A stretch of DNA of 64,000 nucleotides from Clytia hemisphaerica. Taxonomy: Eukaryota; Cnidaria; Hydrozoa; Leptothecata; Clytiidae. Position 1 is the first letter of the stretch, and the number at the start of each line of letters is the position of its first letter. Location: NCBI GenBank assembly GCA_902728285.1, contig CACVBU010000749.1, positions 210,352 through 274,351 on the forward strand, given 5' to 3'. The translations under genes and the position numbers were made by a program. Under the pieces are notes generated by a model. It had not been told where the DNA came from. It did not search any database and saw nothing but the letters and a program-made list of their open reading frames with translations. Positions 20,572 to 60,670 of this stretch are shown in pieces.

Positions 20572-21123
20572 ATGGGTGGCAGGGATGGCCGAAATTTCAG
20601 TCTCCTTTCGAGTGATGGAGTTTATCTCTCACCAGGGACAACAGTTTTTTCAGTGATACAGGGGTGTTTTTTGCCTGAACTCTACACAGAGATTGATTAT
20701 GGACGCAATAACGAGTTAGAATTATTTCAAACAAAATATTTCTCATTTTTTAGGACTACCGCTGATGGAAATTGCCTTTTCAATGCTGTTTCCAAGAAAC
20801 TGTGTGGCGATGAAAAACTTCACCTTGTCCTACGTTTGCTCACAAGCATTGAGCTGTATATGAATTGGCGAAAGTATTTCAAAGAAACTCGTTCGTTAGC
20901 GTTGACATACAAATCATCTTTCAAACATGAATTCGACCTCATACAGTTATTTTTCAACTTCACATCTTCCGACAAATGTACAAATATCGCCGAGATGACA
21001 AAGATATTTCGAAACGAAGCGACCCATATTTCCAAGCCATGTACGTTTTCGTCAATGTCTGCCGTATACTCCAAGAAACAGCCGTGTTTTCCCAGTGTTT
21101 ACCAGGGTCGTCAAACTTCCTGA
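20572..21123 (+). pseudogene. OTU-like cysteine protease domain, N-terminal part
   Basis: OTU domains are papain-fold deubiquitinases. The frame contains the signature FRTTADGNCLFNAVS with the catalytic Cys at 20773-20775 and the preceding Asp at 20764-20766. A helix-rich stretch follows to SMSAVYSKKQPCFPSVYQ. The expected catalytic His (PNHFVL) is not in this frame but in the next ORF, at 21197-21199, in the +1 frame. The domain therefore spans a frame change between about 21095 and 21110. The part before 20754 may be intron rather than coding, because an acceptor (TTTTTTAG) sits there. The shift could be decay, a sequencing indel, or real recoding. Confidence 0.65.
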
Positions 21124-23986
21124 CATAACTTCAAAAGAGATCATTCATGTACTTTGGTCTTCAACCTCAAAACCAGGTGAATACACCTCCCCAAATCATT
21201 TCGTGTTATGTGTGGATGCCAGCTCAAAATCTGTTTCATTCTTAACACCTATTTCAGCTCTTTGTAAATCCATCGAAATACCAGAAACAAAGAAACGAAA
21301 ACAATCAACCATAACTTTTGCGAAAGCGGTAAAGATAGCAAAAACAACAAGCCAACCACTAGGCGTAGCTAAACCTCAGAACTCCGATCAAACACCAATG
21401 CAAATCGATTCCGACCAAAGCACTCCCTCTATCCAAACCGTGTCAAAACCTTCCGTCGATCAAGCACCAATCCAAATCGATTCCAACCAAAGCACTTCCT
21501 CTATCAAATCGAAACCTCAGACCACCGATCATACATCAATCCATACATCAATCCAAATCGATTCCGACCAAAGCACTACTTCCTCTATCGAAGCCGTGTC
21601 GAATCCTCAAATATCCGATCAAACACCAATACAAATCGATCCAGATCAAAGCACCCTTCCTACCGAATCAAAATCTCAAACTAAAGGTCCTACTCGTGGG
21701 AAAGAAAAAATTGACTGCCATCCTAATGACATTGGCTTAGTTCTTGACAGGATTCCCTTGATGACAGATTCTGAAAAGCTCGACTTCATTGAAAATGTTT
21801 GGAAACCATGTACAGATTACAAGTATCCACAACATGAAGAAAATAAACGTAAGTGGCGCTTTAGTAATGACTATATCACTCCAGGCAAATCGAAATATTA
21901 TCATTGGCTAGCATATTCAGCTCATCATGATGGGGTGTTTTGCATTGCTTGTGCCTTATTTGGGAAAACCGTCTCAACACAGTCTAAACTTCAAAAACTT
22001 TTTACTGAACCTTTCATGAGATGGAATGGAATGAATACACGTTTTAAAAATCATCAAGAGAAGAGTGAACTGCATAGGGCTTGTACGGAAATTATGCAAG
22101 CGCTTCAAAGCCAACAAAAAGGAGAAACCCAAAAAATATCAACTGTTATTGACAAGAACAAAGCAAAAAGGATCGAAAAGAATCGTAGTAAGATTATGCC
22201 AATAATCAAAACTGTTGTCCTATGTGCACGACAAAACATTCCCATGAGAGGACATAGAGATGACAGCAAGCACATAGACGATGCGAGTAACAACCCGGGA
22301 AACTTTCAGGAACTTTTAAAATTTAGAGTTGACAGCGGCGACGTAGTTTTGAAAGATCATTTGGAGAACTGTCCAAAAAACGCATCTTACAGATCTAAAA
22401 CGATTCAAAATGAAATCCTGAGTTGCATTGGTAACTTAATTACACGGGGATTGGCTGAGGAAATCAGGAAAGCTCGTTTCTTCTCTGTCATAGCAGATGA
22501 ATCTACAGATTCTAATACAAAAGAGCAAATGTCTTTGGTTATTCGCTTTATTGACGAGAACAGTCAGGTACGTGAAGAATTTATTCGTTTTATTGAATGT
22601 GAATCGACAGCTGCTGAAGCTTTAGTAACTAACATTACCGAGGTAGTAGCATCCCTCTTTCTAAACATGAAAGATTTACGAGGTCAAGCTTACGATGGGG
22701 CTGGAAATATGGCTGGGGCTAAATCAGGAGTAAGCACGAGAATTCGCGAACTGTATCCCAAAGCTCTCTATTTCCACTGTGCTTCTCATAGATTAAATCT
22801 TGCGGTTGCCTCGTCAACCAACATTAGAGGTGTGAGAAACATGATGGACTCCGTTAGAAAGTGCAGCGAGGTGTTCCGTTTTTCTGCAAAAAAGACGGAT
22901 TTACTTAGAGTAAATGTGATTCTACTAATGCCCACAGAAAGGAGGGAAACACTTCTTGATGTTTGTAAGACACGTTGGTTGCAGAGGATAGATGGTTTGG
23001 AAAGAGTAGAAGAACTTATGTCTGCGATTTTAGAAACACTCGATATGATTGCTAACAACCACGATGGTTCATACAATAACAAGGATGGAAGAGCTGATGC
23101 GCGCGGACTATACTGGACATTTCGTTCCTTTACTTTCATCGTCCACCTCATCATTGTCCGTAATGTGATGTCTTACACCCTTCCACTAACCTATGAATTG
23201 CAGAATAAACAACTGGACATTATCAAGGCATACGAAGCTATTGATACCGTCATTACATCACTCGAAGAATGTCGCGAAAACATAAACACAGTTCATAAGG
23301 AATGGTATGATCAGGACGTTGAATTCGCATCTAAGCTTGGGACCCAACCATCAGTCAAACGGATTGCAGGGCAGCAAACTCTCCGTGAGAACTATGACAC
23401 CGATTCTCCCAGCGAATACTACAAGCTATCGCTCACCATCCCATTACTTGATCGGGTCTTCAATGAAATGAAAGAACGATTCTCGCCGAAACGGCGAATT
23501 CATTTAAACGGAAACTATATTCGCCCAAACATAGTTATCTCAACGGAGGATTGGAAAGACAAGGTCCGGCAGTTTGCGAATGAATATGTGGACGATCTAC
23601 CTGAAAAGACAAATTTGGAAACTGAGCTACGTCAATGGCAGATATATTGGACAAATCAGGCAAAACAAGGCCACTTACCAGATACGATCATCGATACGCT
23701 GACCGCAATTAATCCGATCAAACATTGGTTCACGAATATTTATGTCATGCTATGCTTAGTTGCGGTGGTACCAGCAACATCCAACTCCTGCGAACGATCA
23801 ATGTCCAAGTTAAGAATTTTGAAAACTTATCTCAGAGCTACAATGAGCCAAGATCGTTTATCATCGTTAGCTCTGGCAAACATTCATCGTGAATTTGATC
23901 TCAATCCGGAAAAGATTTTGGACATTTTCTCTCAAGAATATCACCATAGACTCGAGCTTTGTGATTTTGATTTACTAAATTTCTAA
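21095..23986 (+). CDS. hAT-family transposase with OTU C-terminal part
   Basis: 963-residue ORF. Residues 1-45 complete the OTU domain (SPNHFVLCVD, catalytic His). Residues about 95-195 are a low-complexity linker with four copies of a DQTPIQIDSDQST-like unit. Then come a TTF/BED-type zinc finger (FCIACALF with a later H...H) and the DUF4371-type start of the RNase H fold. The first catalytic Asp is in VIADESTDS (residue 468); RGQAYDGAGNMAG follows. The C-terminal hAT dimerisation region has NSCERSMSKLRILKTYLR with the catalytic Glu at residue 900, then LALANIHRE. Cut-and-paste transposase of the surrounding element. The ORF is open throughout, with all three functional blocks present. The first codons are only an in-frame reading, not a true start. 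Confidence 0.88.
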   Translation: MFTRVVKLPDITSKEIIHVLWSSTSKPGEYTSPNHFVLCVDASSKSVSFLTPISALCKSIEIPETKKRKQSTITFAKAVKIAKTTSQPLGVAKPQNSDQTPMQIDSDQSTPSIQTVSKPSVDQAPIQIDSNQSTSSIKSKPQTTDHTSIHTSIQIDSDQSTTSSIEAVSNPQISDQTPIQIDPDQSTLPTESKSQTKGPTRGKEKIDCHPNDIGLVLDRIPLMTDSEKLDFIENVWKPCTDYKYPQHEENKRKWRFSNDYITPGKSKYYHWLAYSAHHDGVFCIACALFGKTVSTQSKLQKLFTEPFMRWNGMNTRFKNHQEKSELHRACTEIMQALQSQQKGETQKISTVIDKNKAKRIEKNRSKIMPIIKTVVLCARQNIPMRGHRDDSKHIDDASNNPGNFQELLKFRVDSGDVVLKDHLENCPKNASYRSKTIQNEILSCIGNLITRGLAEEIRKARFFSVIADESTDSNTKEQMSLVIRFIDENSQVREEFIRFIECESTAAEALVTNITEVVASLFLNMKDLRGQAYDGAGNMAGAKSGVSTRIRELYPKALYFHCASHRLNLAVASSTNIRGVRNMMDSVRKCSEVFRFSAKKTDLLRVNVILLMPTERRETLLDVCKTRWLQRIDGLERVEELMSAILETLDMIANNHDGSYNNKDGRADARGLYWTFRSFTFIVHLIIVRNVMSYTLPLTYELQNKQLDIIKAYEAIDTVITSLEECRENINTVHKEWYDQDVEFASKLGTQPSVKRIAGQQTLRENYDTDSPSEYYKLSLTIPLLDRVFNEMKERFSPKRRIHLNGNYIRPNIVISTEDWKDKVRQFANEYVDDLPEKTNLETELRQWQIYWTNQAKQGHLPDTIIDTLTAINPIKHWFTNIYVMLCLVAVVPATSNSCERSMSKLRILKTYLRATMSQDRLSSLALANIHREFDLNPEKILDIFSQEYHHRLELCDFDLLNF

Positions 23987-26774: not shown

Positions 26775-26930
26775 CTCGCCTTTCTGTGAAATCGAGAACA
26801 GATCATTTTGTTGTTTTTCTCTGAATTGCCAAATTAAAGATACGTTTTCGATCAGGGGGGGAGGTCAGTGTACCAGAAAACGGCATGTATCCTAGGGTGG
26901 GTGGGTGTTTGAGAAAAAAATTTGTCATGT

Positions 26931-27150
26931 ACTACCTGTGTACTTTAATTGGCGTGTTGGGTCCAAAATCGATTTTGATTTTTACTACCTGTGTACTATA
27001 ATTGGGGTGTTGGGTCCAAAATCGATTTTGACTTTTACTACCTGTGTACCAAAATAGGGATGTTGGGTCCAAATTCGATTCAGATTTTTACTACCTGTGT
27101 ACCAAAATAGGGGTGTTGGGTCCAAAATCGATTCTGATTTTTACTACCTA
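26931..27150. repeat. Minisatellite, 53-bp unit, about 4 copies
   Basis: Each unit starts with TACTACCTGTGTAC, continues with a GGGGTGTTGGGTCCAAAATC-like stretch and ends in a T-run. Starts fall at 26931, 26984, 27037, 27090 and 27143, exactly 53 bases apart. The unit resembles the 50-52 bp unit at 32600-32840. Confidence 0.9.
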
Positions 27151-27932: not shown

Positions 27933-28485
27933 TTAACACTTGCGCTTTTTCAAAATATCTTTCTCTTTATCTGAGATAACTTCAATCTGATCCTCATTAG
28001 GGTGGTTTTCTGTCATGTGGAGTTTTAAGTTGTACGACCAAGTGTACATGTTGCACGAGGGGCAAGTGATGATACGATTTGTACATGGAGTTGTTTTGGT
28101 AGACTTATTGCCAACTCTTTTATACTTGTAAAAGTAAAGACAATTAGATTGAGGACTGTGATATACATTGTTACCACTCTTTGAAGATGATACCAAGTGA
28201 GGCTTGGACCCTTCTTTCCCACAAAACCCACATAATGATTGTGTTATTATTATTTCCTTATGAATGATATGTTTTCCGATATGAATTCTCATTTCTTTAT
28301 GCTCTACGATTTTTGTGCAAATCTTGCACTTAACTTTCTTTGATGTGGCGTCGACTTCAGCAGAAGCAGAAGATGATGGAGCGTTTTCTGGTTGGTTTGG
28401 GCTTAAAGTCAAATGGACACTAATGTCTTGGATTAGTTGTTTATCAAAATTGTAAATGGAGCAGCCTTTGGGGGGGATTCAATAA
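27933..28485 (-). other. C-terminal zinc-binding block of the fungal-like DDE gene
   Basis: The last exon encodes KCKICTKIVEHKEMRIHIGK (C2H2-like), then LCGFCGKEG, a spaced TTPCTNRIITCPSC pair and WSYNLKLHMTENH. It has about ten Cys/His ligands and ends in KKRKC and a stop at 27933. The block is a fused zinc-finger array rather than classical tandem C2H2 fingers and would serve nucleic-acid or end recognition. The exon probably begins near 28485, after a run of C. Confidence 0.65.
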
Positions 28486-31400
28486 GATCTATGGTTTGAT
28501 GGTCATGCAATTTTTCCTTTAACCAATAATGGATCTGAAACACACTTTCCGGTAGAATAAAGTCTTCCATCAACCTCTGTAATCTCTAATTCTCTAACCT
28601 GTACTTGAACAGAAATGTTATCCAGGTCCTTACACGAAATCAAAGTTTTAGCATGATCTCCATCTTTGATACCAACAACAACAGAAATTTTCATTTGCTT
28701 TTTTCCACCTCGGCAATGATAGGATCCCCTACAGATATTGTGTCATTCAGACTAACCTTTTCCTGAGAATCACTGGTAAACTTGCTCAATCCTCTCACCT
28801 TTCTCAATCGATCTGCAGATAGGGGCTTTTCTTTTGAAATTTGTTTAAGGACTGTTGCTTTATAGACATTCTTTCCACCAACTTCAAAATATGACAATAC
28901 ATTTCTGTCACTGTCAATGACATCAAAAAGCTCTACTCCGTCTACTTCCTCATTCTCTTGAACTAACTCGCAATCTGATGTTGATACTTCTTCTTCCATC
29001 ACTGACCAGTCTTCCTCCCTTTCACTGACACCAATAACTCTAAAGAAAGGGCGCTTTAGAGTGACACCTTCAAGACTAAGATCAACAGGATTGAATTCAA
29101 ATTCAGCTTTGACTGCTAAAGCTTGACCTTGTAGAAGTCCAAACTTCTATGATGTTGTCAGATTGACACTAGAAACGACAAGATTGCCAGACCAGTCTTT
29201 GCAACTTGAGTGGTCCAATACAAGCCGGCGAGACAATCGACCTTTATGAACCCATTTGGGATGATTTGATAAAATCTCGTCGCATAATGATATTGAAGAA
29301 GTTAAGTTTATGAGCTCGAATGCATCCAAGTTTTTGTGGCCGAATGACATTCGACAGTTACCGAAAAATCTCTCCGCAGGATCTGTTCCATTTAATACTG
29401 TGTAGAAAGATTGCGTCGGTGCATGAATTTGTAGTTTAGCAATACAAAAAATAGTATCTATAAATGTGCTTTGAAGATCGTGGTAGAGTTGGTTTGGGAT
29501 CTTAAATGCATCTTCCCTATTCAGAGCGAGAAGGGAGGAAGCTCCTGTTGCAATGAATTGGACCTGAAGTAAAACAAAGCAAAACAAGAAGATATTAATT
29601 TCCTTAGTAAGTGTTGGGATGTTAGAAAATTTGTTACAAGAGCAGATTATATTAATAATGCCAAAGTGACTATCTTTTGTTAATGGATAATTAATTTTTA
29701 CTAAAAATCATCTGCTCTCATACCTGCTCATACACAAATTTTGGACGTCCCTACCCTGCCTTCCTGAAAGAAACAACTATATGAAAATCATTAATGAGGT
29801 CCGCCTTTCAAAATGAAAAATGCAAATATCAAAATCAAACAAGGAAAGAATAAACATGCTTTTGAAAATTTGCTACCCCCTACTGAGAAAATGGATGATA
29901 CGACTACCAAACCTGATTTGTGAGTGAATGCTCTGCATATGAATATGAATACAAACAAATGATAGCTTCATAAACTGCGGCAACCAAGACAAGAACATTT
30001 TTTATCAAAGTCAATTTGAAAGGTATCTGCTCCCTTTTTGGCGTCTTTGATTACTTCAATGAAGCTAAAGGCACATTCTGTTTATCCCCTTGGATAAACA
30101 AGTGATTCCACTTCATGTGTACGAATATCTGCAAGCTTCATTATGTCTCCCACGTCCTGTTTAGTTACTTGAATATTAGCAACCTCTAGCTTGCCACTTA
30201 TTAATGAAGTCCAGCATCTTTTGGACAAATGCTTGGCATCGTATTTAACTGTTTCGAGGTTGTTACCAATATTTGTTTCAATCAATGGAAGGGCAGGATT
30301 TTCTTCCCAAGATCTGAGTTAGAATCCAGTTCATTTTGAGTGATAGCGTGCATGGCCTGTCTTCGAGTTGAATCACCGTCAGTGTTAAAATTCAAAGGGT
30401 TTGCATCTATTTTGTTTTTGATGCTCTGGCTGATGTTGTTGACTGTTCCAATTCGTCTATGTCATCAGAAAATTAAGTCAGTTATGTATTGTTGGATCAG
30501 CCTCAAAATTGCAGGGAATGAAGCAGTGACTGACAGTGGAAATGACCTAAATATCATATAGCTACAAACTTCACTTACCAGTAACCAGACATTCTTTGGG
30601 AATATGGATCCCCCCTGCTGAAAGTTTTTCTTGTAGGATTTCAGCATCTTCCATTGTGTTAAAATCTAGGCTTACATTGCCATGGTGTTCGTAGCAGGTA
30701 CCAACAATCTTATTGGCTTTTGAATCGTATCGAAACCGAGGATTGATAAATGTCTCATCTGATTTGATAGACAAACCAAATTTTGAACTTTCATCTCCTT
30801 CAAACTTCATGTTGAAATTTTCATTGAAAGAATCTTTGTATGACATATCCCGGAATAATTTCAAATGTGCTCCTTAAAATAAAAAAAGGTATAAAAAAAC
30901 AACAAACTGTTATCGAGAGTAGATACAGGTAGATGGTAGATGTTTATAATAAAAAACAATACAGTAATAAAAGAGCATTGTTCAACTGAGTTCAATACAA
31001 TATAACGCATTTAAAAGTATTTCTTGTGTTTGTTTTGAAATAATGATAAATGAAATACCTTTTTTACTCATTCTGTTAGCAAGGGATGTACTTGGGAGGA
31101 CATTTGCCCTGTACAAAATATCCAGTAGTAATGGGCCTCCAAACTTTAAAACCAAAAACGCCAGGTCTTTATCATCCTGGCTTTATAAACACCTGCCACA
31201 GCATCTGTGCACTTGCCAAGAATATATTGGATACTCTGATTGTTATTTAGGGCAACATTGACAAGAAAGTGCAGTCGTGGAACTTTATTTTCAGCAATAT
31301 AGATAACAAAGCGTTTGTAAAAAGAAAGCGTTTTACCAAGTTGCTCCACCTTGTTGTTAAGTTTGTAATTCTCAATAGAAAGGAGAGAGTCTTACTTCTG

Positions 31401-31735
31401 ATTTTTCTCGAACTTGTTTTTCAATTGATTGAATGTCAAACATTCATTTGGAATATGGGTTGAAGGATCATCGTTTTGAGAACGTGCTAGGATTCTTTTT
31501 AGAGATGAGTCTTTTCCTAACAGAGAACAGTCTTTGTTTATTTCTCCATCAACATTGATGTCCATCACAAAGTCTTTCAGACTACATTGTTTGGTATGAA
31601 ATTTCTGTTTTGAAATCACAAAAGGCTGACTGTCCAGTATTTGGTAGGGAAAGTCTTGAAGTATGTTAATCGGGGGATTTGGGGAAAATCCAGAACAGTA
31701 TTTCAGTTCAACACCAATTCTCATGTTTTTCGAAC

Positions 31736-31997
31736 CTGTACTTCTTCTACAATTTCTACATCATTGTCAAGCCTGTTCCTGTCTGAATTGTTTTCTTCTC
31801 TTACTGATAGTGATTCTGTTAAGTTTGATTCAGAGGAGGAGGTCTGAGAAGTATTTGTTTTTTTCTGATAGTATGCTGTTATCGTCGATGTAGATTTCCT
31901 CTTGCCATTCTTCTTTCTACAAGCTTCAATATGCTTCTCCTTATTGTGTTTGTTAAGCTCTGAAAGGTCTTTGCTACAAAAGGAACACTGATCTTTT
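31736..31997 (-). other. N-terminal C2HC zinc finger and PIP-like motif of the fungal-like DDE gene
   Basis: The first readable block encodes QCSFCSKDLSELNKHNKEKH followed by IEAC. This is a CxxC...HxxxC finger like UBZ4/SNM1-type fingers. It is followed by KSTSTITAYYQKK, which resembles a PCNA-interacting box (I at position 4, YY at 7-8) but has Thr where Gln is usual. A Ser/Glu-rich tail follows. The true start codon was not found; a TAA precedes the finger in this frame, so an upstream exon or acceptor is needed. Confidence 0.5.
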
Positions 31998-32589: not shown

Positions 32590-32840
32590 GGGTATGAGGT
32601 GGTTTCGGCGTCTTTCCAGGTAGTGGGGTGGTTAGGGGCTTTTTTCCAGGTAGTACCCAGTAGTAAATGGGGGGTATGGGGTAGTTTTTTTTTTTCCAGG
32701 TACTACCCGGTAGTAAATGGGGGGTATGGGGTGGTTTTGTTTTTTTCCAGGGTACTACCCGGTAGTAAATGGGGGTATGGGGTGGTTTTGGTTTTTTTCC
32801 AGGTACTACCCGGTAGTAAATAGGGGGTATGGGGTGGTTT
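32590..32840. repeat. G-rich minisatellite, 50-52 bp unit, running into the assembly gap
   Basis: Units read TACTACCCGGTAGTAAAT, then GGGGGTATGGGGTGG, then a T-run ending in CCAGG. Unit starts are at about 32651, 32701, 32753 and 32804. The unit contains the palindrome TACTACCCGGTAGTA. The array is cut by Ns at 32841, so its true length is unknown. Long ORFs across the Ns are artefacts. Confidence 0.9.
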
Positions 32841-33463
32841 NNNNNNNNNNNNNNNNNNNNNNNNNNNNNNNNNNNNNNNNNNNNNNNNNNNNNNNNNNNN
32901 NNNNNNNNNNNNNNNNNNNNNNNNNNNNNNNNNNNNNNNNNNNNNNNNNNNNNNNNNNNNNNNNNNNNNNNNNNNNNNNNNNNNNNNNNNNNNNNNNNNN
33001 NNNNNNNNNNNNNNNNNNNNNNNNNNNNNNNNNNNNNNNNNNNNNNNNNNNNNNNNNNNNNNNNNNNNNNNNNNNNNNNNNNNNNNNNNNNNNNNNNNNN
33101 NNNNNNNNNNNNNNNNNNNNNNNNNNNNNNNNNNNNNNNNNNNNNNNNNNNNNNNNNNNNNNNNNNNNNNNNNNNNNNNNNNNNNNNNNNNNNNNNNNNN
33201 NNNNNNNNNNNNNNNNNNNNNNNNNNNNNNNNNNNNNNNNNNNNNNNNNNNNNNNNNNNNNNNNNNNNNNNNNNNNNNNNNNNNNNNNNNNNNNNNNNNN
33301 NNNNNNNNNNNNNNNNNNNNNNNNNNNNNNNNNNNNNNNNNNNNNNNNNNNNNNNNNNNNNNNNNNNNNNNNNNNNNNNNNNNNNNNNNNNNNNNNNNNN
33401 NNNNNNNNNNNNNNNNNNNNNNNNNNNNNNNNNNNNNNNNNNNNNNNNNNNNNNNNNNNNNNN
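32841..33463. other. Assembly gap (623 N)
   Basis: Run of N directly after a minisatellite; a repeat collapse or scaffold gap. Confidence 0.99.
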
Positions 33464-33895
33464 TGATGATAATAAACGTGCGCATTTCATTTTGCTGGAT
33501 AGTCCGTGTCTTTACTTACTTTAATTAAGAATCGATTTCGTTCAAGTACTACGAAAAGTGTACGTGACCACGGCATCAGCGAACGAATGGCGCCAAAAAT
33601 CAAAATACTAATTTTTACAAATTAAAGACTCAAATAAAATTACTTCTTATTATTTAAAATTTACAATTCTTAAAATTTTTCAATCTAATCCCACAAAAAT
33701 ACATCTTTAATGATGTTATTTTGTACTAATGAGCTTAAATAAAGATAAACACTATGATTTAAAACACTTGAAGCTATACGACAGAGGTCCGCATTTTACA
33801 CGTATGGATAACTACCGTGTAAACAGAACGCACGAGGTCTCGATACAACGAAAAAAAATTTTTAAAGAAGAGCTGAAGAGAGCAGACAGACCAGA

Positions 33896-36800
33896 ATGAA
33901 CGAATTCAAAGATTTGACAACAGAAGAAGTAAGCAGTGTGCTGGAGGACTTGACAATGCAGCATTTATCTGAAAAGTTCACTGGTAAGATTTTGTTTTGA
34001 ATATAGATTATTGTTAATATGGTGTATGTTACCCAATCCTATTATTTATTATTGGGCGGGCTCTTCCAGAAAAAATTTGATAATAGACGACAGGAATCTT
34101 TAGATGAAAAAAGCACTCAGAAATCCAGTCAATTTTTCAAAGTGTAACCAGAAATTACACATAAAGTTTGTCAAAATTTTGAAAAGGTATCGGAAAATTC
34201 CAGATTTTTACACCAAAAAATTGATTTTGTATTGGTAATCTAGGAGTTTTAATTGGGCGGGCATCACAAATAACTTGTGTTCGCGTCGTTTTTAGGTATA
34301 AAAAACAAGTTGGTCGGTCGGCAAAAAAAACGTCGGAAAAATTGATTTTCAAACCATGAGTCGGGCGAAAATCAAATCTATAGGAAATTTGAAAAGCTAC
34401 AGTACGCTAGAGTCACACCGAAAAACAAATAACTTTTATAAACTTACCTTCCCAAAACATTGAAGAAGCCTATACTAATCAAAGTAAATGAGAGAAGAGA
34501 GGAAAAAACCTTAAAATCAACCACAATTTACAACATTTTTTCCAAAGCAAAAAGACGTACTTTTCTTGCCGCCATCTTGAATTTAAAATGAGAGTTATAT
34601 TCAGCCCCAGTTCACACAATAATTTTTTCATCCAATTAGATTGTGCGATCGATTGGGACTATTTTATACTTATAAAAATCCGACTTTCCGACTCAAAAAA
34701 GTCGGAAAATTAGGAAAAATCATCAGCCGGTCGGACGACGCGAACACAAGTTATTTGTGATGCCCGCCTTGCTTTTGTATTGGAAATCAAGGAATTTCGG
34801 AAAAACTTTTTGCCTCGGAATTCTGGTCGTCGTCAAAATATTGAGTCACTGTAACTTCTTGTTGTAACCTGACTCCCACTCTAGATAATGAATAATGGGT
34901 CCTAGAGGACCTTTTAATACTTAAAATATAGATAGATAGATAGATAGACTCAATGCAATTGAACTTTTTCCATCAATGGCTAGGTAATTGATGACCAATG
35001 GATTAATAATTTATTTTGATAATTTAGTTATATCAAAAAAGGACTTCGCTGTTGACAATGGTCTGACCCACAGTATCTAATCTCATATGCTTTTCGAACT
35101 TTCTTATTATTCAAAATATATATTCTTTTTTTTTTCAGAATATGAACTAAATGGCAAACATTTAGAAACCATCATCAAGTCAACAGATCAGTTTGCTATG
35201 TTTGATAAAATGGGCATCCCAATCAAAGAGATAATTGAATTCCAAACACTCTTTCCAAGGAATCTAATGGTTAATCAAGACAATTTGGGTACAAGCACAG
35301 TCGCAGGAACTCCAGGATCAAAAAAGATCTACAAAATGGAAAGTAATGTTAAGTAAGTTGTAGTTTTTACTTTGTTTGATGTCCCTTGTTCATTGCTCTG
35401 GTGGCTTCAACTTCAAAGAATGATTTATTTCACTTTCATATAACCTTTATTATTAATTAATTATTATTTTTAAATGCTTTTATCTGCAGTGATAATGAAC
35501 ATTCATGTTGAATGCTACTTAAACAAATATCATATAGAAGCATCTGATGAGTTGGAACAGCTTCAAGTTCAGAAAAATCTTCTATTTTGCCGATTGCAAC
35601 TTATGAAGCATTGACTTCAATGATCATGTTATTCATATTCTTCTATTTTCAGGCAAAGCACCATAAGAACAAAAACAATAAAACGTTGGCCTGGAAATGA
35701 AATACCAACATTTGAAAATGGAAAAAACATGAAAGAAATGGTTGAATTTGTGGATAGCTTGATGAAAATAAACCACCTTAAATCGATTGATAAAAAAGTT
35801 CTGACCAAGCGAGTGATGGGGGTGTTGAGAGAAAGGCGACGTCAGATTAGAAATGGTGTTGACTATGAGGTATTTTAAATCTTAATACATCAAACATAAA
35901 AACAAAAATTTGAAACAGTTTCTTTACAATATCTCAACCACTTTGTATTTGTTCAGTTATTCTCTAATGAGGATTATTTTATGCTTGTTAATGTGGTGGG
36001 GTACACCATCAAACATTGAAATTCTATTACCAAGGCCCTTGTACCCTTTTAAGTGCTTGCCTGGTGATAAATTACCATCACCACTGTAATTTTAGAACCT
36101 CTTCGTATTTTAGTTCACTCTTGGTTTACACGTTTTTTTTTATTAGAACACCTAAAATTTGGCTGAGCCTGGATGTGCTTATTTTTTTAGCAATTTTCAG
36201 CCTAAAATGTTCTTAAATGCGTTCTTAATTTTTCGGACTACTTTAAATCGACAACATCATGCAAAATAAAGAAAACTTAAAGTTGGTAAAATTTGCATAA
36301 TATTTGACTCTCGATTTTAGAAAATCCATCAATAAGTTTGGTTAAAACTGCTTGAAAAGAGGAAAAAAATTGTAGTTTTTTGTCATTTTTTTTCCAAACT
36401 GAGGCTGGGCATGTTCTTACGATGTTCTTAATTTTTCGACGAATTTCAGCCTAAATGTTCTTATAAACTGTGTTCTAATAAAGAAAAAAACGTGTACTAG
36501 TAAATTATCCTTGGTGAATGTTTTGATAAATTTATAATGGTAATTAACAAAAAAATTTTTCATTGGACTTGTTATTGCAAAAATTGTACTATTCTTTTAA
36601 ATCATTTAAAAAAAATTACCTAAAGGCTGAAGACAATGAAGGAAGGAAGGAAACAAAGGCCAAAAAGAAGCTTGAATTGAAGGTATCATAATTTAATAGT
36701 TAAAAAGTACATTCTCGATACTATTTACAGTCTGACTGACAGCGGTTTGATTAAGGTTGACAAATAGATTAAGTCTGACTCTTTTTAAAGAGTAAAGCTC

Positions 36801-39800
36801 AATTTTTTTGATCTTGAAAAATTTTTATTTTATCCTCATGAATCGCTAAATTAAATTCCAGCAAATACAAAATTTTAAGTATCTCAAATTACGTGTATCA
36901 TTGTTGCTTTTCAATATCGTATGCCTTTGTGACTGTTGTATTGTACTTTTGTAGGATAAACAGATGAATTTTTCATTGGTATCATCGTCTCAAACACTGC
37001 CAACAAAAGAACAAAGTCAGAACAAGGTTTCAATATAATTTTCATTATTAATTAATTATTTTGGATGTCCACAAGGATACTTCATTAATTGATTAGAGTT
37101 TTTTTTTCAATTTTGCTAATCAATGAAAATTTAAAAGAATTTTGTGGTTGGTGTAATTTAAGATGCACGATCTAACGATTTACGATTCACAATGCACGAT
37201 CCATGCATAAAGTATGCTGATTATTCCTAATAATTATCATAAAACTTAAATTATATTACATAATTTTAAAACAATGGCATAATCTGTTTTCGCTTTTGTT
37301 TACCACGGTAAATTTATGCAACAAAAACGAAATAAGTAAGCAATGGAACTACGAATAATTACGACCGTAAAATTATGAAAAAACTTACATAATGTTTTTT
37401 GAGAGTGAAAATAAACAATGCACAAGAAATATTTTTGCTCTCATTTTAAATAATATGTTTTGCGGACCGTAATGTACGAAGCAAAAAAACGGGTGCTCTA
37501 TTATGAAAAAGAATTCCCCTATATCTGATTCAAGTTATGAAAAAGAGAGAGAGGACGACGTTTTCACTTTCTTTTAATCTATAACTGAATTTAAATTGAA
37601 AAGAGAAAGGGATCATGCTAGGATCAGGAAAACGCACTGAAAGCTTCTTTAAATATGATTTGTATAATCTTACATAAATGATGTTTTTAAAAATAATTGA
37701 GTTTCGAATGCGAATGAAAGTTTGTAAATTGCCTAAATATTTCATCATGTTTAGCATAATTGTGCATGAATTAACATATTTTATGCACGGATCGCGAATC
37801 ATACATCGTAAATCGTTAGGTCGTGCATCTTAAACCACACAAACCCAGAATTTTGGGTGGAAAAGTTCTTTAAATCCTATCTGTGGACTAAATTGGACAA
37901 AAAAAATTATCCACCTGTGGCATGTTATTAGGCAATGAAGGTTATTTTCATTTTGTTGAACCAGACTTTCTATTTTTTGTAGGCAAAATCGAAACGTTCA
38001 ATAGCAATGTCATCAACGTTACAACATGCTATATCTTCACTACAACAAAGTGCATCCCATGGAAAGAAGCAAAACAGTACTTCAGTGTTCCAAGTATTCA
38101 TATTCTTCCTCATATCAATTTTTAAGCCTGAAAATTCTCACTTTTCATTCATTTTGTTTTTCACTTGACTGGTTAGGGGTTAAATGATGCTGTATAACCT
38201 GATGCAAGAAATTCACAAATTACAAGTTTTTGGTTTTCTTTTACATATTTTTCTTGTTTTCTTCTTGGGCCAGACTTTGTTTGAATCTTTTCTATTTTCT
38301 ATTTCAAACAGAAAAATGATTCAATAGCCGTGAAATCTTCATCACAACAGACCGCATCTCAGGAAAAGGATTCAGCATTACAGGTACTTATGAATGTCTC
38401 TTTTCTAATTTATTGCATTTTCTAACCTTTGGTGTCAATGAGCCAGGCCCAACCCCCAGACCAATGGACTTGTTTAATTTTTTCAACCAACCAATGACCT
38501 TACAAAAAACGTTAAAAAGTTTTCGCTCATTTTGCGGGAAAGTGGAGACCGGCCTTAAGTCAAGGTTGTTATTCAATTTGTGCTCTTAGGCTCCAAATAA
38601 ACGGAATAAATTTTGTGCCCAAGTACCAAAGCGTTTTGAACCTAGTAGGTTGCAGTAGATTAACTTAATTGTCTTCATTTGTTTGTCTGTTTCTCTTTAG
38701 ATTGTCACAACACTTTTTAATTTATTTGATTTTTTTTGTTAGAGAACATCAACCAACAAAACACCAAAAAGGAAAGGTCCACTTGATGTCTCAAATCAAG
38801 GTGTCTTCTCTAAGAAGAAAAAGGCTGTAAGTTAAAATCTATTTGAAAGTATTATAAGTTAAGCTAAAATGAGTGTGTCATATTTGACTCAGAAAAGGAT
38901 TGATTTCAATTTTACTGCGTAGCTAATTGGTAACTACTCAAATTTAAAATGAGTGGGAAAATATGAAAAGATGGAAGTTATTGTTGTATCAATAGAAATT
39001 TCATTCTCAAGATGATTAAGTCTTTCGAGAAAATGAATCATTAAATTGTAAAAAATCAACCTGAATCAGCCTAAATTATGAGACTTTTCTTTCTATGAAA
39101 CTTTTGCTGGCTGAATCAGTGCAGTGTCAAAATTCGAAATGACATTGCCCTGGTGATATCTGATTTTCATCATAGGGCATCCAAAAGGAAATCCAGAATA
39201 AAGACCAGAAAGAATGTCCAAATAGAAGAACATCGACTCAAGTTGGCGATGATGAGGTAGCTATAACAAAAGTTAACTTTTGAGCGGGCAAGGAACTGTA
39301 CAAAACAGACAAACTTTGAAAGTCCAAAATTTAACCAGTAAACCTGCTTATAAACACAGTTAAACCTAAAAAATTTGATCAAATTATTAGAATCAGGAGA
39401 TAAACTTTGGCCATTATGTGGAAAATTTTCCTTGGTAACTGTTTTCTTGGGGTAAGCGCAGGTATTTGGCGAAAGAGGGGAGCAGTCACAAAGGGAAGGG
39501 TAGAAACCCATCTGTTAAATATGTATTGATTGGATGGTTGAGTTCTATTTTACTTTGAACCTTTTAGATCATTAGAGAAAATCCGTTCTCAATGGACCTG
39601 GTAAGTTATTTCCTTTGTTTCACAATACAAAAGGGTAAATACAACATTGTGATTTATTGATTTTTTCCTGTGAATACAACAAATATCGTCGACTAAATGT
39701 TTGCGGGCCGTATTGTACAAAGTAAAAAGTTGTTTTTTTTCTGTAACTATTCAAAAAAGAAATGTTTCGTAATAAAATATTCTTTGTCTGCTTCGTCATT

Positions 39801-42800
39801 GTACAGTATTATCGTACATTATCCATTAATTAATGCTGTATAGTATATACCATTAACACAACTAGCTATTTCTATGAATGATTACACATAGCTTTGTTCT
39901 TTATCATATATCTTTTTTGCCTTAGTAAAGTTAAAGTCTTCTTTGATTGTTAGTTTGATAAGCCCATTCAAGATGATGATGACGAAACTCAATCGCTCCC
40001 ATTATCTCAGCCATCTCCACAAGCTCCCGAAACTCCACGAAAGCATTCCACGGACGCATCAGGTAAGTGTCCATTAAAATATTTGGAAAATATTTTTGCA
40101 TTAACTATTTTGGCCTTTATTGGCATGGATAGAGGCAGAAGGAAATCTATATTAGTAAAATCATATTGGTCAGATTGGTTTCTCATATTCTGTTTTTTTT
40201 CTTCTTTTGAATCTAAATATTTTAAATACAGATGGAAAAGTTATTATGTATGGGTAGTTTCGGCATACCGGATAAGTGGGATGGGGGAACCTGGGAACCT
40301 AAAGTGGGAACCTAAATGAACACCTGATGGGGGAACCTTGGGATGGGTTTGGGATGGGGGAACCTAACCTAAGAACACCGGAAAAGTGGGATGGGGGAAC
40401 CTAAGTGGGAACCTAAGTTGTTTAATTATTAATAGAATTGGAATATTTTTCTTTAAAAACAAATACATAAAGATAAGAAGATATTATATGCAAGGGAAAA
40501 AAAACCTTTTATCATAATAAGAACACCAGTTATTTACTTTTTACATTACGGTTCGCAAACAATAATGTTGAAAATAAAACAAAGGGAATTTATTTATTCA
40601 ATTAGCTCAAAAAAGCATGTTTATTTATCAGCAGTTTCATAGTGCATCTTTTTGAAAGGTTCTTTTTAGTAAATTGACTTAATTGACTTTAAACTTTAAA
40701 CTTTAAACCGTCATATCTTCAAATCTAGAAGGAATTAGAATTTCGTTCATAGCTCGATGGATAACTTAGAGCCTCTTCTTTCTTTTGCACGGATCTAATT
40801 TGCTTGAATACAGAATCTAGTAAAACATTATTTACGATCTAGTTTTTGATGCAATACACATTGTTTTTTATTAGCAGCTCCAATTTTCGGGTCAGGGCTG
40901 GGGTCGCTTAGCATTTAACGGATTCTAGCTCGTTTTTCTTTCTGTACCAACCAAACAGTACAGCGTGTGAATACACTTCATTAATTAAAAAAGTTTGATA
41001 GTAAAATAGAACATATTGCACGGCTTGCCACGTTTCAATACACATAAGCATAGATCCCGGGGGGGGGGGCACTCAAGGTAAACGACCTACCGTACGTGCG
41101 GCCCTTTTTTCCAAGCTTCCCAAAGTACACTGTAAGGGTGGAAATGAGCAAAAATGAGAATAAGTGCACTCTAAGGGTTTAAAATTTGGTCAAAGCCAGT
41201 CCGGCTTTTAGAATTTCATCTGAACAAGTGTCATGTTTTTTAACACTGGGTAAATTTTGGAACATCAAATATGTCCATCCCTATCAGGATCTGTTCTAGA
41301 ACATGTTGACCAAGAAAAAGATCTAGGAGTGATAATCGATAGTGACCTGACCTTTGAAGCCCATATATTCAGTCAAATCAAGAAAGCTAACTCTATCGTT
41401 GGCTTGATTAGCAGGAGCTTCGAATTTCTCTCACCAGATATGTTTCGAACGCTTTTCATTGCATTTGTCAGACCCCATTTGGAATATGCACATGTAGTAT
41501 GGTCTCCAAGGCTAATCAAACATATCAATGTAATCGAGGGCGTCCAACGAAGAGCTACAAGGCTAGTTAGTTGCTATAGAAACTACTCATACGAAGATCG
41601 GCTACGACTCATCAATCTACCTAGCCTAAAGACCAGGCGGCAAGTTGGTGATATGGTGGAATGGTGGAAGTTGTCAAGAACCTCCACATTTATGACGAGT
41701 CTATAAGATCAGAGAAATTTACTCCTCGAACACGACCACGACGTCAGCATGATTACGAGCTTGAAAGGAACTTTGCTAATGACGGTATGAGAGGCTACCA
41801 AAGCAACTCTCTTTTTTACAGAAGTGTGAAACCTTGGAATGATCTACTTTAATGGGATAAATTTTCGCGGGGATTAATTTTCGCGGATTTCGCGGATTTG
41901 GGTGTCATCCGCGAAAATAAGTCCCATTGGAAATTTGAAAAAGGCCCATCCGCGAAAATTAGTTTCCGCGAAAAATTTGAATTTTTTTTGCAATCCGCGA
42001 AATTTCTATTTTTATTGTTTTTTATTTATTTTTTTTTCTACATGAGGGCACGCAACCCTCGAAAAAGGTCAAATCCTCGATATGCTTGTTAGCAAAAAAT
42101 CGTTTTCCTCAAAATATTCTTCACAAATTTACAAACTTGGAAGAGGTATTGGAAAAATTTTATTTCAATGTTTTGACCCTTTTCAAAAATTTTAATTTGT
42201 ACCCCAATCCGCGAAAAATCAGGAAATCGCTCATCCGCGAAAATTAATCCCCGCGAAATCTTAAAATTTCGCGGATGAGCTCAACCGCGAAATTTAATCC
42301 CCGCGAAAATTTATCCCATTAAAGTAGAAGAAGAAATTGTTGAAGCACCATCCTTAAAAAAAGTCTTCAAAGAGCGTTTGATAAAAGAAAGGGAGAAAAA
42401 ACTTTATAAAATGTAAAATCAAAAGTTCTGTTTCATAGGAGGTCAATAGACGTGCGAAATATATTGCTATAAAAAAAAAAAGAAAAAAAAATAAAAAAAA
42501 GAAAAAATTAGGTTCCCACTTAGGTTCCCCCATCCCACTTTTCCGGTGTTCATTTAGGTTCCCACTTACGTTCCCCCATCCCACTTTTCCGGTGTTCATT
42601 TAGGTTCCCACTTAGGTTCCCCCATCCCACTTTTCCGGTGTTCATTTAGGTTCCCCCATCCCACTTTTTAGGTGTTCATTTAGGTTCCCACTTTAGGTTC
42701 CCACTTTAGGTTCCCAGGTTCCCCCATCCCACTTATCCGGTATGCCGGTAGTTTCAGCTCCAAATCGTATTTTTTTACACAGAACGAGAAATAGAATTAA

Positions 42801-43463
42801 TACATCTCCACCATATTCGCCTTCGTCGCCTTCCAATTCAGAAGATAACGGTGAAGAAGAAAGTGAACGTCCAAAAGGTAATAAATTTTTTTCTTGTTGT
42901 AAATTAACGGAACAAGAAATCCGTGAAATGACGTGGTAGTGGAAATTCGAAAAGGCTTTACTCGTGGAAAAAATTTTGAACAAAACTCTTAGAATGTTAC
43001 AACCATGGAAAATATGATTAGTAAACTGTTAACTGTAAAAATTGCAATTTGGAAAGCATAAATTAAATTTAGATAGGTCATTTTGATGATCAAAGTTGAT
43101 CAAGCTGAACAAAACTTACAAACAAAATAATAGAACTTTCCTTTTTTGTTAAATATCATTTATTATGTTTCAGAATTGACATACATGGACGTGTTAAAAG
43201 TGGGTCGTATCTTTTGTACCGGGAAGGGCAACCAGGCCCCTTCAAAACCATTATTGTTTAGAGTTGCTGGTGAATTCGATTTCCATGCATCAATTCGAAA
43301 GACAATTGATGTTATTACTCATGAATTCGGTACGTGGCTAATGGAGAAAAATTATGTTGTCGCTGTTTCGCCACCAATTTCTGGGTATTTGGATCTCCTT
43401 TTCCCACGTGGAGAACCAACTTGGTGGGATACAAGCGACAACAGTCAAGTATTGCTGAAGTAA
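33896..43463 (+). CDS. SAM-domain protein, 14 exons, about 514 residues
   Basis: Exons: 33896-33983, 35139-35352, 35653-35869, 36626-36682, 36955-37026, 37983-38093, 38312-38383, 38743-38826, 39176-39256, 39568-39600, 39954-40062, 40232-40253, 42783-42877 and 43174-43463. All sit between AG and GT, and every phase agrees; total 1545 bases. Exons 1-2 encode a sterile alpha motif (LTTEEVSSVLEDLTMQHLSE, then FDKMGIPIKEIIEFQTLF), a helical protein- or RNA-binding module. Exon 3 is basic and helical (LTKRVMGVLRERRRQIRNG). Exons 4-13 are Ser/Gln/Lys-rich and look disordered, with basic patches (FSKKKKA) and an acidic one (SEDNGEEESERPK). Exon 14 is a compact conserved-looking domain (ELTYMDVLKVGRIFCTGKGN to WWDTSDNSQVLLK) that I do not recognise. 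Function unknown; perhaps a nuclear scaffold. Introns 1, 3, 5 and 12 hold mobile elements. Confidence 0.7.
34256..34768. mobile_element. MITE in intron 1 of the SAM gene
   Basis: About 513 bp with terminal inverted repeats of some 33 bases starting GGCGGGCATCACAAATAACT, closed by the complement ending ...GATGCCCGCC at 34768. No ORF of note. The flanks share an imperfect TTTTGTATTGG-AATC repeat, so the duplication is not cleanly resolved. Confidence 0.75.
34928..34950. repeat. GATA microsatellite
   Basis: About five tandem TAGA units in intron 1 of the SAM gene. Confidence 0.9.
36129..36494. mobile_element. TA-flanked MITE in intron 3 of the SAM gene
   Basis: 366 bp between TA dinucleotides at 36127-36128 and 36495-36496. 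Inverted ends CACGTTTTTTTTTATTAGAA and complement. It has internal copies of 'CTAAAATNTGGCTGAGNCTGG' in both orientations. TA duplication and MITE size suggest a Tc1/mariner-mobilised element. Confidence 0.75.
37151..37840. mobile_element. MITE-like long inverted repeat in intron 5 of the SAM gene
   Basis: The left end reads GTGTAATTTAAGATGCACGA and the complement of the right end reads GTGTGGTTTAAGATGCACGA. Both continue through CTAACGATTTACGAT and a GATCC.TGCATAAA block, giving imperfect inverted repeats of about 65 bases around a 560-bp centre. No coding capacity; target duplication not resolved. Confidence 0.7.
41058..41220. mobile_element. Incomplete G-run MITE end
   Basis: CCCGGGGGGGGGGG at about 41058 followed by 'GTAAGGGTGGAAATGAGCAA' and 'CTCTAAGGGTT' units recalls the nested MITE at 19904-20262. 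No matching right end is seen. Confidence 0.4.
41220..42416 (+). pseudogene. CR1/L2/Jockey-like RT C-terminal fragment, split by a MITE
   Basis: Same family as 10495-11340 on the other strand: EKDLGVIIDSDLTFEAHIF, FVRPHLEYAHVVWSPR, INVIEGVQRRATRLV, LPSLKTRRQVGDM, then after a frame change at about 41680 VVKNLHIYDES and KPWNDL. The MITE at 41847-42324 interrupts it. To the right of the MITE the frame resumes as EEIVEAPSLKKVFKERL and ends at a stop at 42414-42416. It is 5'-truncated and lacks the catalytic part. Confidence 0.75.
41847..42324. mobile_element. TA-flanked MITE with 31-bp perfect inverted ends
   Basis: 478 bp starting CTTTAATGGGATAAATTTTC and ending with the exact complement, flanked by TA at 41845-41846 and 42325-42326. 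Removing it with one TA rejoins the RT reading frame in phase, which confirms the insertion. The inside is full of CGCGAAA/TTTCGCGG motifs. Same superfamily as 52118-52541. Confidence 0.88.
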
Positions 43464-44130
43464 TTTTTAACTTTTTCAAATTTTAAGTAACCTTTTCGTG
43501 AACGTTACATAACGTATACAATGTTCAAAGTATCTGTACAGAATGATCATTTTACTGAGTCTTAATTACTTTTGATTAATTGATCATTGTTTCTTATGTT
43601 GCAATTTGTATAAAAAATTAAGTTTTTGTTTGCTGGTAGTAGGTTTTCAATCCCTATTACTTGAATATCCCTTTGCATTGCACTCCCATATGTATCTAGG
43701 TAGTTATTTATATATTTTTTATATCTTTTAGGTATTTTTTATATAACCTGTCAGTCAAACAAAGAAAAGACTGTATATTTTGTTTTATTTATCATCAGCA
43801 TTGAGATGTTAAACTATGTTAGGATTTTTATCGAGTTTTTTAAGTTTTTAGACATATCTTTATATATTTATATAAAAAAGAAAAATGTGTATATTTATTT
43901 CAAGAATAGCTTTGGGATATCAAATTATGTTTGTATTTTTATGCCCATCCTTTTGGCAAGGAAAAGATTTTTAAGTATATTTTTAGACAATTTTTAAGCT
44001 TTTGAACATTTATACACACAACTTTGTACTTACATGTTTATCTTTTTACTTTTACTTTTCATTACGTTTTACGAAAAACAGTTCATATTTTGCAAAACCT
44101 TCTTTTCTATTTTCTATTTTATTTGGGAAA
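43464..44130. other. No gene seen; 3' flank of the SAM gene
   Basis: Very AT-rich, with chance ORFs made of Phe, Ile and Tyr. Probably 3' UTR and intergenic. Confidence 0.5.
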
Positions 44131-44660
44131 TAGCAAAACACACGCGTATGCGTTTGATCAAAGTTCTTTTGGGATATTTGATTTCACATTTAGGAAATAG
44201 CAAAACACACGCATGTACGTTTGACCTAATCTTTTGAGATGTTTGATTTCACATTTGGGAAATAGAAAAACACACGCGTGTACGTTTGACCAAAATCTTT
44301 TGGGATATTTGATTTCACATTTGGGAAATAGCAAAACACACGCGTGTACGTTTGATCAAAATCTTTTGGGATATTTGATTTCACATTTGGGAAATAGCAA
44401 AACACACGCGTGTACGTTTGACCAAAATCTTTTGGGATATTTGATTTCACATTTGGGAAATAGCAAAACACACGCGTGTACGTTTGACCAGCATCTTTTG
44501 AGATACTTGACTTCACATTTGGGAAAAAGCAAAACACACGCGTGTTCGTCTGACCAAAATCTTTTGGGATACTCGATTTCACATTTGTGAAATAGCAAAA
44601 CACACGCGTGTGCGGTTAATCTAAATTTCTTTGGATACTTGATTTCACGAATGTGATATC
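44130..44660. repeat. Minisatellite, ~66-bp unit, about 8 copies
   Basis: Unit: 'TTTTGGGATATTTGATTTC', 'ACATTTGGGAAATAGCAAAA', 'CACACGCGTGTACGTTTGAC', 'CAAAATC'. Successive units start 64-67 bases apart. Each holds the partly palindromic core ACACGCGTGT. Because 66 is divisible by three, both strands stay open over the array; these ORFs are not genes. Degenerate CACACGCGTGTG motifs continue to about 44800. Confidence 0.92.
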
Positions 44661-56850: not shown

Positions 56851-56931
56851 CGAACATAAATCAACCCAGGAGAACAAGATCTGTTTGACTTCTACAAATC
56901 AAGATGCATCAGCAAGATCCAACAGTTAGAA

Positions 56932-59900: not shown

Positions 59901-60670
59901 GGAAAGGAACATCAGAAGTCAAAGAGTTCGTATCATCATCAAAGTATTCAAATACCTCAATCGAAAAGGATAGAATTCTCACATACACAGGACGAATTCT
60001 ACCAACTGATTCTGTTACCATCATTGGGAAGGCTACACAACGAATGCTAGATCTTCAATCGACGTCATTCTGTGTCCCAATCTTGGAGAAGTCATCACCA
60101 ATCGCCTACAGCATCGTCAACGACATCCATTGGAACCACATCACTGCTTCACATTCTGGTGTGGAGACCACTTGGAGATATGTTCTTCAGAAAGTTTTCA
60201 TCATCGAAGGAAGGAGCCTGGTCAAGTCAATTCGATCAACTTGTGAAAGGTGTCGATACCTTCTCAAGAAAACCATCGACGTATCAATGGGACCAGTATC
60301 ACCTGACAACCTGATGATTGCTCCAATCTTCTACGTATCTCAAGTCGATTTGTGTGGTCCATTTGAATCATACTCGTATCACAACAAGAGAGGGCCACTG
60401 TCAAGATCTGGTACGCCGTCTTCTGCTGTGCTACTACCACCACCATCAGCATCAAATGCATGGAGGATTACTCGACAAACGCATTCCTACAAGCATTCAC
60501 TCGACTATCGTGCGAAGTTGGGTATCCACGTCGACTGCTCACTGATGAGGGCAGCCAACTCGTCAAGGCTTGCGAAACACTTCAAATTGATTTTCAAGAC
60601 ATCCAACGTCGTCTCTTCAAAGAATCCAATGTCGATTTCAACACTTGTCCAGTTGGAGGCCACAATATGA
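56932..60670 (+). pseudogene. BEL/Pao pol: protease, RT, RNase H, integrase zinc domain (frame break in integrase core)
   Basis: A single open frame from just after a TAG at about 56930 to 60670. Order: protease (LFYDNGCKNSVI, Asn where Ser or Thr is usual in the DSG/DTG box), a Cys-rich spacer (CVNCRKCLTCKNH), RT (FDASMPTSTGFSLND, YVDD at 58571-58582), RNase H (FADASPSMICSAIYVRF, RGELAAAV, FTDNQITLHW), and the integrase HHCC domain (HWNHITASHSG ... CERCRYLLKK). The integrase core begins at about 60340 (QVDLCGPFES), but the real frame leaves this ORF near 60390. The residues from there to 60670 are out-of-frame and not retroelement-like. Copies element RNA to DNA and integrates it. Confidence 0.9.

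Follow-up and report, generated by a model that had tools for sequence, protein, structure and literature searches.

Elements of the P superfamily are recognised by a DDE catalytic triad, a [C/D]xxH motif with an insertion domain ahead of the E, and target-site duplications of 7 or 8 base pairs (bp). In the literature, D230 and E531 are given as catalytic residues of P transposase and D339 as the aspartate of its D(2)H motif (PMC8230255, PMC7776569), and Galileo, a Drosophila member of the superfamily, is credited with duplications of 7 or 8 bp (PMC4168063). The subject of this study is a locus in a 64,000-nucleotide stretch of the genome of the hydrozoan Clytia hemisphaerica (assembly GCA_902728285.1, contig CACVBU010000749.1, positions 210,352 to 274,351), here called the window. 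The locus is very probably a copy of a cut-and-paste DNA transposon of the P clan, from a divergent lineage without THAP.

The family to which this copy belongs resembles the P element and THAP9 (structure 6p5a) in the order of its parts, namely a finger, a probable coiled coil, a helix-turn-helix (HTH)-like segment, and an RNase H core split after DxxH. Its residues align with D230, D339, and E531 of P transposase, and its target duplications are likewise short. The P element differs in having THAP and 8-bp duplications, whereas this family has a BED/C2HC-like finger, a zinc block, CAGGGG ends, and duplications of 7 bp. With Galileo, the family shares the duplication length, as well as tandem repeats inside the ends, which occur in some Galileo copies. 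Galileo differs in its THAP, its very long inverted repeats, and its target consensus GTATTAC, and no consensus of that kind is apparent by eye among nine duplications of the present family.

Similar duplications are found beyond the P superfamily. Those of hAT7 from rust fungi and Kyakuja from Laccaria are 7 bp long, and Kyakuja also has CA..TG ends (PMC12730594). Both nevertheless belong to other transposase families, and the present family matches neither hAT nor KDZ models. Dada elements have 6–7 bp duplications at specific sites in small RNA genes (PMC3706591), a range that includes 7 bp, the comparison being one of length alone. Going by titles and the openings of abstracts, no description of the family was found in the literature.

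Copies, termini, and target-site duplications

A preliminary description, made from the letters of the window, had listed an ordered series of protein motifs and assigned them to a DDE transposase-like family. All of these motifs are present on the minus strand (Table 1), and the motif blocks are conserved among aligned copies. In the window's own assembly (417 Mb, 951 contigs), 24 matches were found for the exon at 29147–29707, 12 for the exon at 30571–30873, and 41 for P0003, a 519-amino-acid paralogue. Because the exons and P0003 have so many matches in their own genome, the motifs are not chance resemblances. When combined, the matches of both exons and P0003 fall in 22 places, of which the window is the 22nd; the genome holds at least that many places coding for the transposase. 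Eighteen were examined as loci, the places left out being C851, C163, and C230. The copies most similar to the window element, in C439 and C624, are about 95% identical to it.

Nine copies bear both ends. They start with CAGGGG, end with CCCCTG, and are flanked by a 7-bp target-site duplication, one of the two lengths that characterise the P superfamily. Across the 18 loci, 23 pairs of CAGGGG and CCCCTG spaced 1.5–9.9 kb apart were tested. Identical flanks occur in six of them, all exactly 7 bp long (L010, L012, L014, L015, L016, and L017), and exact flank matches of 4, 5, 6, 8, 9, 10, or 11 bp occur in none of the 23. In the C439 copy, GATTAAA was seen by eye on both sides in a longer piece; with a shifted boundary, an eighth base matches too. 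The terminal 18-mer CAGGGGGGGTCAGTGTAC has 54 exact occurrences in the genome (its reversed control has 0), and opposed pairs of it enclose two short non-autonomous copies, 956 and 1632 bp long, whose duplications are exactly 7 bp (GTCAAAC and GATAAAA). Inverted repeats that run on past CAGGGG are clear in four of the six full elements (L010, L012, L016, and L017). Over 6.0 kb, the elements of two separate places, L016 and L017, share 97.6% identity, which suggests recent movement of the family. The multicopy paralogues with termini and target-site duplications that the preliminary description had proposed to look for are thus present, and the case in which every homologue is a single-copy host gene lacking termini is excluded.

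The ends of the elements are also rich in short repeats. In the left array of the window copy, TTACTACC lies on the plus strand at 26982, 27035, 27088, and 27141. In the right array it lies on the minus strand at 32666, 32716, 32768, and 32819, with one more further inside at 31131. Variant motifs occupy the terminal kilobases of other copies: AGTTACTAC in L012, AGTTAGTAC in L014, and AGTTACTCC in L016 and L017. The pattern TTA[CG]T[AC]C was picked after viewing the same elements, so that its counts describe and do not test: there are 8–15 occurrences per terminal 2 kb of the six full elements (shuffle means 1.0–1.5, maxima 4–7), 0–2 in the interiors of these elements, and 3 and 5 in the two short non-autonomous copies (shuffle maxima 3 and 4). 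The subterminal motifs may be binding sites of the transposase, an analogy drawn from P elements and Galileo.

The transposase and its probable relationship to P transposase

Joins between exons with GT-AG boundaries are visible by eye, for example in L012 between SDNK and IYGICYDHG, and the better preserved relatives encode a multi-exon transposase of roughly 1000 amino acids or more. Its domains follow the order BED/C2HC-like finger, probable coiled coil, HTH-like segment, RNase H-type core, and C-terminal zinc block (CxxC...H...H, CGFCG, further C residues, and W.Y...H). Within the core, the motifs run DET, TDGD, DxKH, insertion domain, and ERfFGN. Both acids of DET and both of TDGD are invariant in profile A3, an alignment of the spliced core from six copies, as are, among others, the D of D-x-K-H and the E of ERxFGN. 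Among the 18 loci, counting only copies with letters at the site, the first D and the E of DET are kept in 11 of 11 copies, the second D (TDGD) in 13 of 13, the D of DxxH in 10 of 11, and the E of ERxFGN in 13 of 15. The members scanned match no Pfam family at the cut-off. Their best matches are weak zinc-finger ones (zf-Di19, E 3.1e-4; zf_C2HC_14, E 0.0025), and zf-BED appears below the cut-off (E 0.011–0.019) in three of the four N-terminal pieces scanned. Scans of six proteins each with NCBIfam and PHROGs gave nothing of use.

The relationship to P transposase emerges from profile searches. When profiles A3 and A1 were run with hmmsearch against all PDB chains, the sole hit of either up to E 10 was the Drosophila P transposase (6p5a/6pe2), with E 6.5e-5 and 1.5e-4, respectively. 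The alignment of A3 with 6p5a consists of three colinear segments, in which D230 lies opposite the D of DET, D339 opposite the D of DxKH, and E531 opposite the E of ERxFGN. The score comes from the middle segment, the only significant one, which covers 6p5a 339–439 from the D of DxxH into the first part of the insertion domain. A comparison by hhalign of A3 with A4, a profile of five canonical P copies from the same genome, pairs DET with DEM, TDGD with CDGA, and D-x-K-H with DPPH at a score of 35.8. In a run with a shuffle control, the score was 40.5, and 100 column shuffles of A3 reached at most 28.7. The kinship to P transposase indicated by these profiles is remote.

By the alignments, the catalytic triad would consist of the D of SDETF, the D of TDGD at 30378–30380, and the E of GTDPAE (Table 1), and homology predicts that these three acids cluster in space. 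In sequence alignment, the family shares with the P superfamily a DDE triad and a [C/D]xxH motif with an insertion domain before the E. The preliminary description had placed the triad at 30379, 30239, and 29373. The first and last of these positions stand, as the D of TDGD and the E of GTDPAE. The remaining one is the D of D-x-K-H, which aligns with D339 of P transposase and with no catalytic acid, and the first catalytic D, in SDETF, had been missed. Sequence homology bears out the proposal of a DNA transposon with a predicted DDE/RNase H-type transposase. The accompanying idea of kinship to no known superfamily is not supported, because the profile search of the PDB yields P transposase and nothing else.

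Several observations weigh against placing the family in the P clan. At the level of the structure search, the outer segments of the A3 alignment, those with D230 and E531, would not be significant by themselves (0.1 and −2.2 bits). Profile A2, built on the N-terminal half that contains DET and TDGD, did not find P transposase in the PDB (its best match was ribosomal L22, E 0.094), and the single protein P0003 had no match there. The hhalign profile–profile probability is just 14–32%. Against the five P copies taken singly, A3 scored 28.2, 22.5, 22.2, 17.8, and 14.6, and against the hAT and BEL/Pao pol sequences of the window, used as controls, 18.5 and 20.3; three of the five P copies thus outscore both. 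Since the controls are single sequences, the single P copies are the fair comparison, and there the signal is weak. Of six single members run against the P profile, one (30.6) exceeded the shuffle maximum. No member scanned matches Pfam PF21787, PF21788, PF12017, or PF21789, and the long canonical copies L035–L037, the control, all match PF21787 and PF21788 (3/3). THAP was not found in the members scanned, which have a BED/C2HC-like finger in its place; here the control is mixed, with L036 just above the cut-off, L035 just below it, and L037 without a match. Finally, 12 of the 18 loci, among them C439 with its left end outside the piece, have no pair of termini with a duplication in the piece examined, L014 and L015 lack clear inverted repeats past the CAGGGG run, and the choice of the subterminal pattern after the fact belongs here as well.

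Canonical P elements are themselves abundant in this genome, with at least 150 matches to PF21787 (150 of 247 candidates scored), and none of those listed falls on the family's places. The termini of L035–L037 were not found, hence they provide no duplication length for P elements of the same genome. On contig C870, six canonical P-type matches spaced about 2.75–2.79 kb apart lie at 32974–47261, apparently as a tandem array.

The window copy and its surroundings

All coding blocks of the window copy lie on the minus strand within 27933–31996, in several frames separated by intron-like stretches, as judged from the sequence and the list of open reading frames (ORFs). The limits first given for the locus, 27933–31997, hold for this coding part; they fall short of the whole element, whose left end is at 26853 in a three-way comparison of the window, C439, and C624. 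The terminal 18-mer is recognisable at 26856–26873 with 3 mismatches, where shuffles expect 0.01. The right end and the right target duplication are hidden by the assembly gap, and the right end is visible in C439 and C624.

Table 1. Features of the transposon copy in the window; catalytic assignments are predicted from the alignments.
Feature	Position	Strand	Basis and details
Left terminus, CAGGGGGGG..GTCAGTGTACCAG, of the family's terminal inverted repeat type	26853..26890	+	C624/C439 homology begins here
Left subterminal tandem array	26930..27149	+	53-bp unit, 4.2 copies, contains TTACTACC
C-terminal zinc block (CxxC..H...H, CGFCG, CP.C, W.YN..H)	27933..28478	-	Motifs, including CGFCGK/TTPCTN/CPSC/WSYN; zf-Di19 E 3.1e-4, below cut-off
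Linker / C-terminal region	28503..29146	-	Two overlapping frames, 28503-28742 and 28691-29146
End of insertion domain, putative third catalytic residue E, helices after it	29147..29707	-	E 29372-29374 in GTDPAERFFGN
DxxH motif and start of insertion domain	30082..30318	-	D 30238-30240, KYDAKH, in KYDAKHLSKR; segment of the significant PDB match
Putative second catalytic D	30282..30461	-	D 30378-30380 in TDGDSTRR; hhalign pairs TDGD with canonical-P CDGA
Putative first catalytic D and strand after it, RYDSKANKIVGTCYEH	30571..30873	-	D 30757-30759 in SDETF; aligns with P-transposase D230 (FDEM); ORF includes RYDSKANKIVGTCYEHHGN
Segment before catalytic domain, FGGPLLLDILYRANVLPSTS	30982..31182	-	Includes FGGPLLLDILY; first PDB-match segment, 6p5a 168-248, 0.1 bits, alone insignificant
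N-terminal region, probably coiled coil	31146..31760	-	Stop between 31392-31760 and 31146-31391 in the window copy
N-terminal BED/C2HC-like finger, CSFCSKDL..NKHNKEKHIEAC, not THAP	31721..31996	-	Motifs
Right subterminal tandem array	32640..32840	-	51-bp unit, 3.9 copies, left-array motif in opposite orientation
Assembly gap (N)	32841..33463	.	Sequence

The segment ahead of the catalytic domain is a possible counterpart of the HTH region in P transposase. The linker region is one open frame in the C439 copy, which is also open at 29147–29149, the position of a premature stop in the window copy. Besides the N-terminal stop listed in Table 1, the window copy has a frame change between 31146–31391 and 30982–31182, and in C624 the corresponding region is one open frame of 351 amino acids. 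The window copy is dead, a broken and inactivated transposon copy, because of the stop at 29147–29149 and the N-terminal stop and frame change by comparison with related open copies.

The copies used for these comparisons have features of their own. On C439, a nested insertion of 7.5 kb (58253–65796; L028/L009) with a frame of at least 1355 amino acids splits the element copy. C624 matches the window at 96.7–98.3% identity in three pieces between 33469 and 44126, and within about 21 kb of its left flank blastn gives no match longer than 150 bp to window sequence left of 26847. The scaffold may have been joined across the gap at 32841–33463, or the window and C624 copies may differ structurally.

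The window holds further mobile elements and repeats. An uninterrupted hAT transposase frame of 995 amino acids, with DUF4371 and the hAT dimerisation domain, occupies 20999–23986. Remnants of BEL/Pao retrotransposon pol genes (Peptidase_A17) lie at 1480–2943 and 56930–60670, the second being an open frame of 1246 amino acids. A tandem repeat with units of about ISHLGNSKTHACTFDQNLLGYL at 44225–44727 is open on both strands. A perfect 34-nucleotide inverted repeat (34256–34289 and 34735–34768, 445 nucleotides apart) possibly marks the two termini of an unrelated DNA transposon of small size.

Competing identities, the possible fungal link, and implications

Academ elements are zinc-finger transposons common to fungi and animals. 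Their target duplications measure 3–4 bp in AcademX and 9–10 bp in AcademH (PMC10045372), and because those of the present family measure 7 bp, Academ was set aside, on duplication length alone.

Among the alternatives that remain to be weighed, the one closest to the P-clan reading would make the family a DDE superfamily in its own right, sister to P within the wider C/DxxH group (hAT, P, Kolobok, MuDR, and Dada), with a BED-like finger, a zinc-rich C-terminus, and CAGGGG ends with 7-bp duplications as its signature. This proposal is tentative and, in our judgement, somewhat doubtful. It overlaps the reading of the family as a divergent P lineage, so that the likelihoods of the two do not sum to one. 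Its attraction is that a family with its own C-terminal zinc block, without THAP, and without a match to any Pfam P model sits in a genome where canonical P copies are recognised, and the weak hhalign probability points the same way. Structures of hAT, RAG1, and mariner proteins exist in the PDB, yet P transposase is the only match there, and 7-bp duplications are within the P superfamily, as the lengths cited above for Galileo indicate.

The termini and the finger raise the question of a hAT transposon with 7-bp duplications, similar to hAT7, since hAT elements typically have CAGGGG ends and a BED finger. The sub-threshold zf-BED matches and the 7-bp hAT families of rust fungi agree with this identity. 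However, no hAT domain, neither the dimerisation domain nor a DUF4371-type core, was found in the Pfam scans, which did recognise the window's own hAT element as a control; no hAT structure is among the PDB hits up to E 10; and the hhalign score of 18.5 against the window hAT lies inside the shuffle range. We therefore regard a hAT identity as improbable. Membership in KDZ, suggested by the ends and duplications of Laccaria Kyakuja, is more improbable still: none of the members scanned has a match to the Pfam KDZ model, and among the 110 matches to it listed in the genome (150 of 171 candidates scored), none lies on the family's places. Least credible of all is the reading of the locus as a host gene domesticated from a transposon of this kind. 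The conserved order of exon-like blocks might be expected of a gene, but the premature stops and frame breaks relative to close relatives, the recognisable left terminus, and the many other copies speak against it.

If the locus is, as we favour, a copy of a P-clan transposon without THAP, its mobilisation can be outlined by reference to P transposase. The N-terminal finger and the HTH would bind family-specific motifs of the TTACTACC type, which recur close to each end of the element in opposing orientations. Cutting of the ends would then fall to the D-D-E triad and its metal ions, which would also join the 3' termini to target positions staggered by 7 bp, and host repair of the resulting gaps would leave the 7-bp duplications.

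The preliminary description also drew attention to mushroom-forming fungi. Similar proteins may exist in Agaricomycetes. Three scans of viral contigs and one of prokaryotic contigs, with one to six short peptide patterns each, gave no relative. The genome of the window has 39 Wnt matches, which mark the host as an animal, since Wnt is not known outside animals. The RepeatMasker class P-Fungi is by name a fungal branch of P, yet it is recorded in both an agaric and an animal, with 10 copies in Pleurotus ostreatus PC80 (PMC12387193) and 0.04% of the Daphnia magna assembly (PMC8594854). P-Fungi may already be the label of the family described here; compared by name and hosts only, the table listings fit this without proving it. 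A more far-reaching possibility, which we put forward with reserve and consider less than even in likelihood, is a sister superfamily of P elements, ancient and lacking THAP, that animals share with mushroom-forming fungi and in which a BED-type finger together with a zinc-rich tail would recognise the ends.

Were this ancient sister superfamily real, the P-type core with its insertion domain would predate both the union with THAP and the animals, or would have crossed kingdoms. Similarly, if the fungal link is true, the P core would date from before the animal–fungus split, or horizontal transfer would have taken place. As a member of the P clan, the Clytia family would widen the P superfamily past THAP-bearing elements, and the protein-family models used here would be missing a lineage of P-type transposases. 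Its well preserved copies with defined ends offer a means to investigate when the P core acquired THAP, and may also bear on whether the GTP-using insertion domain is older than that union.

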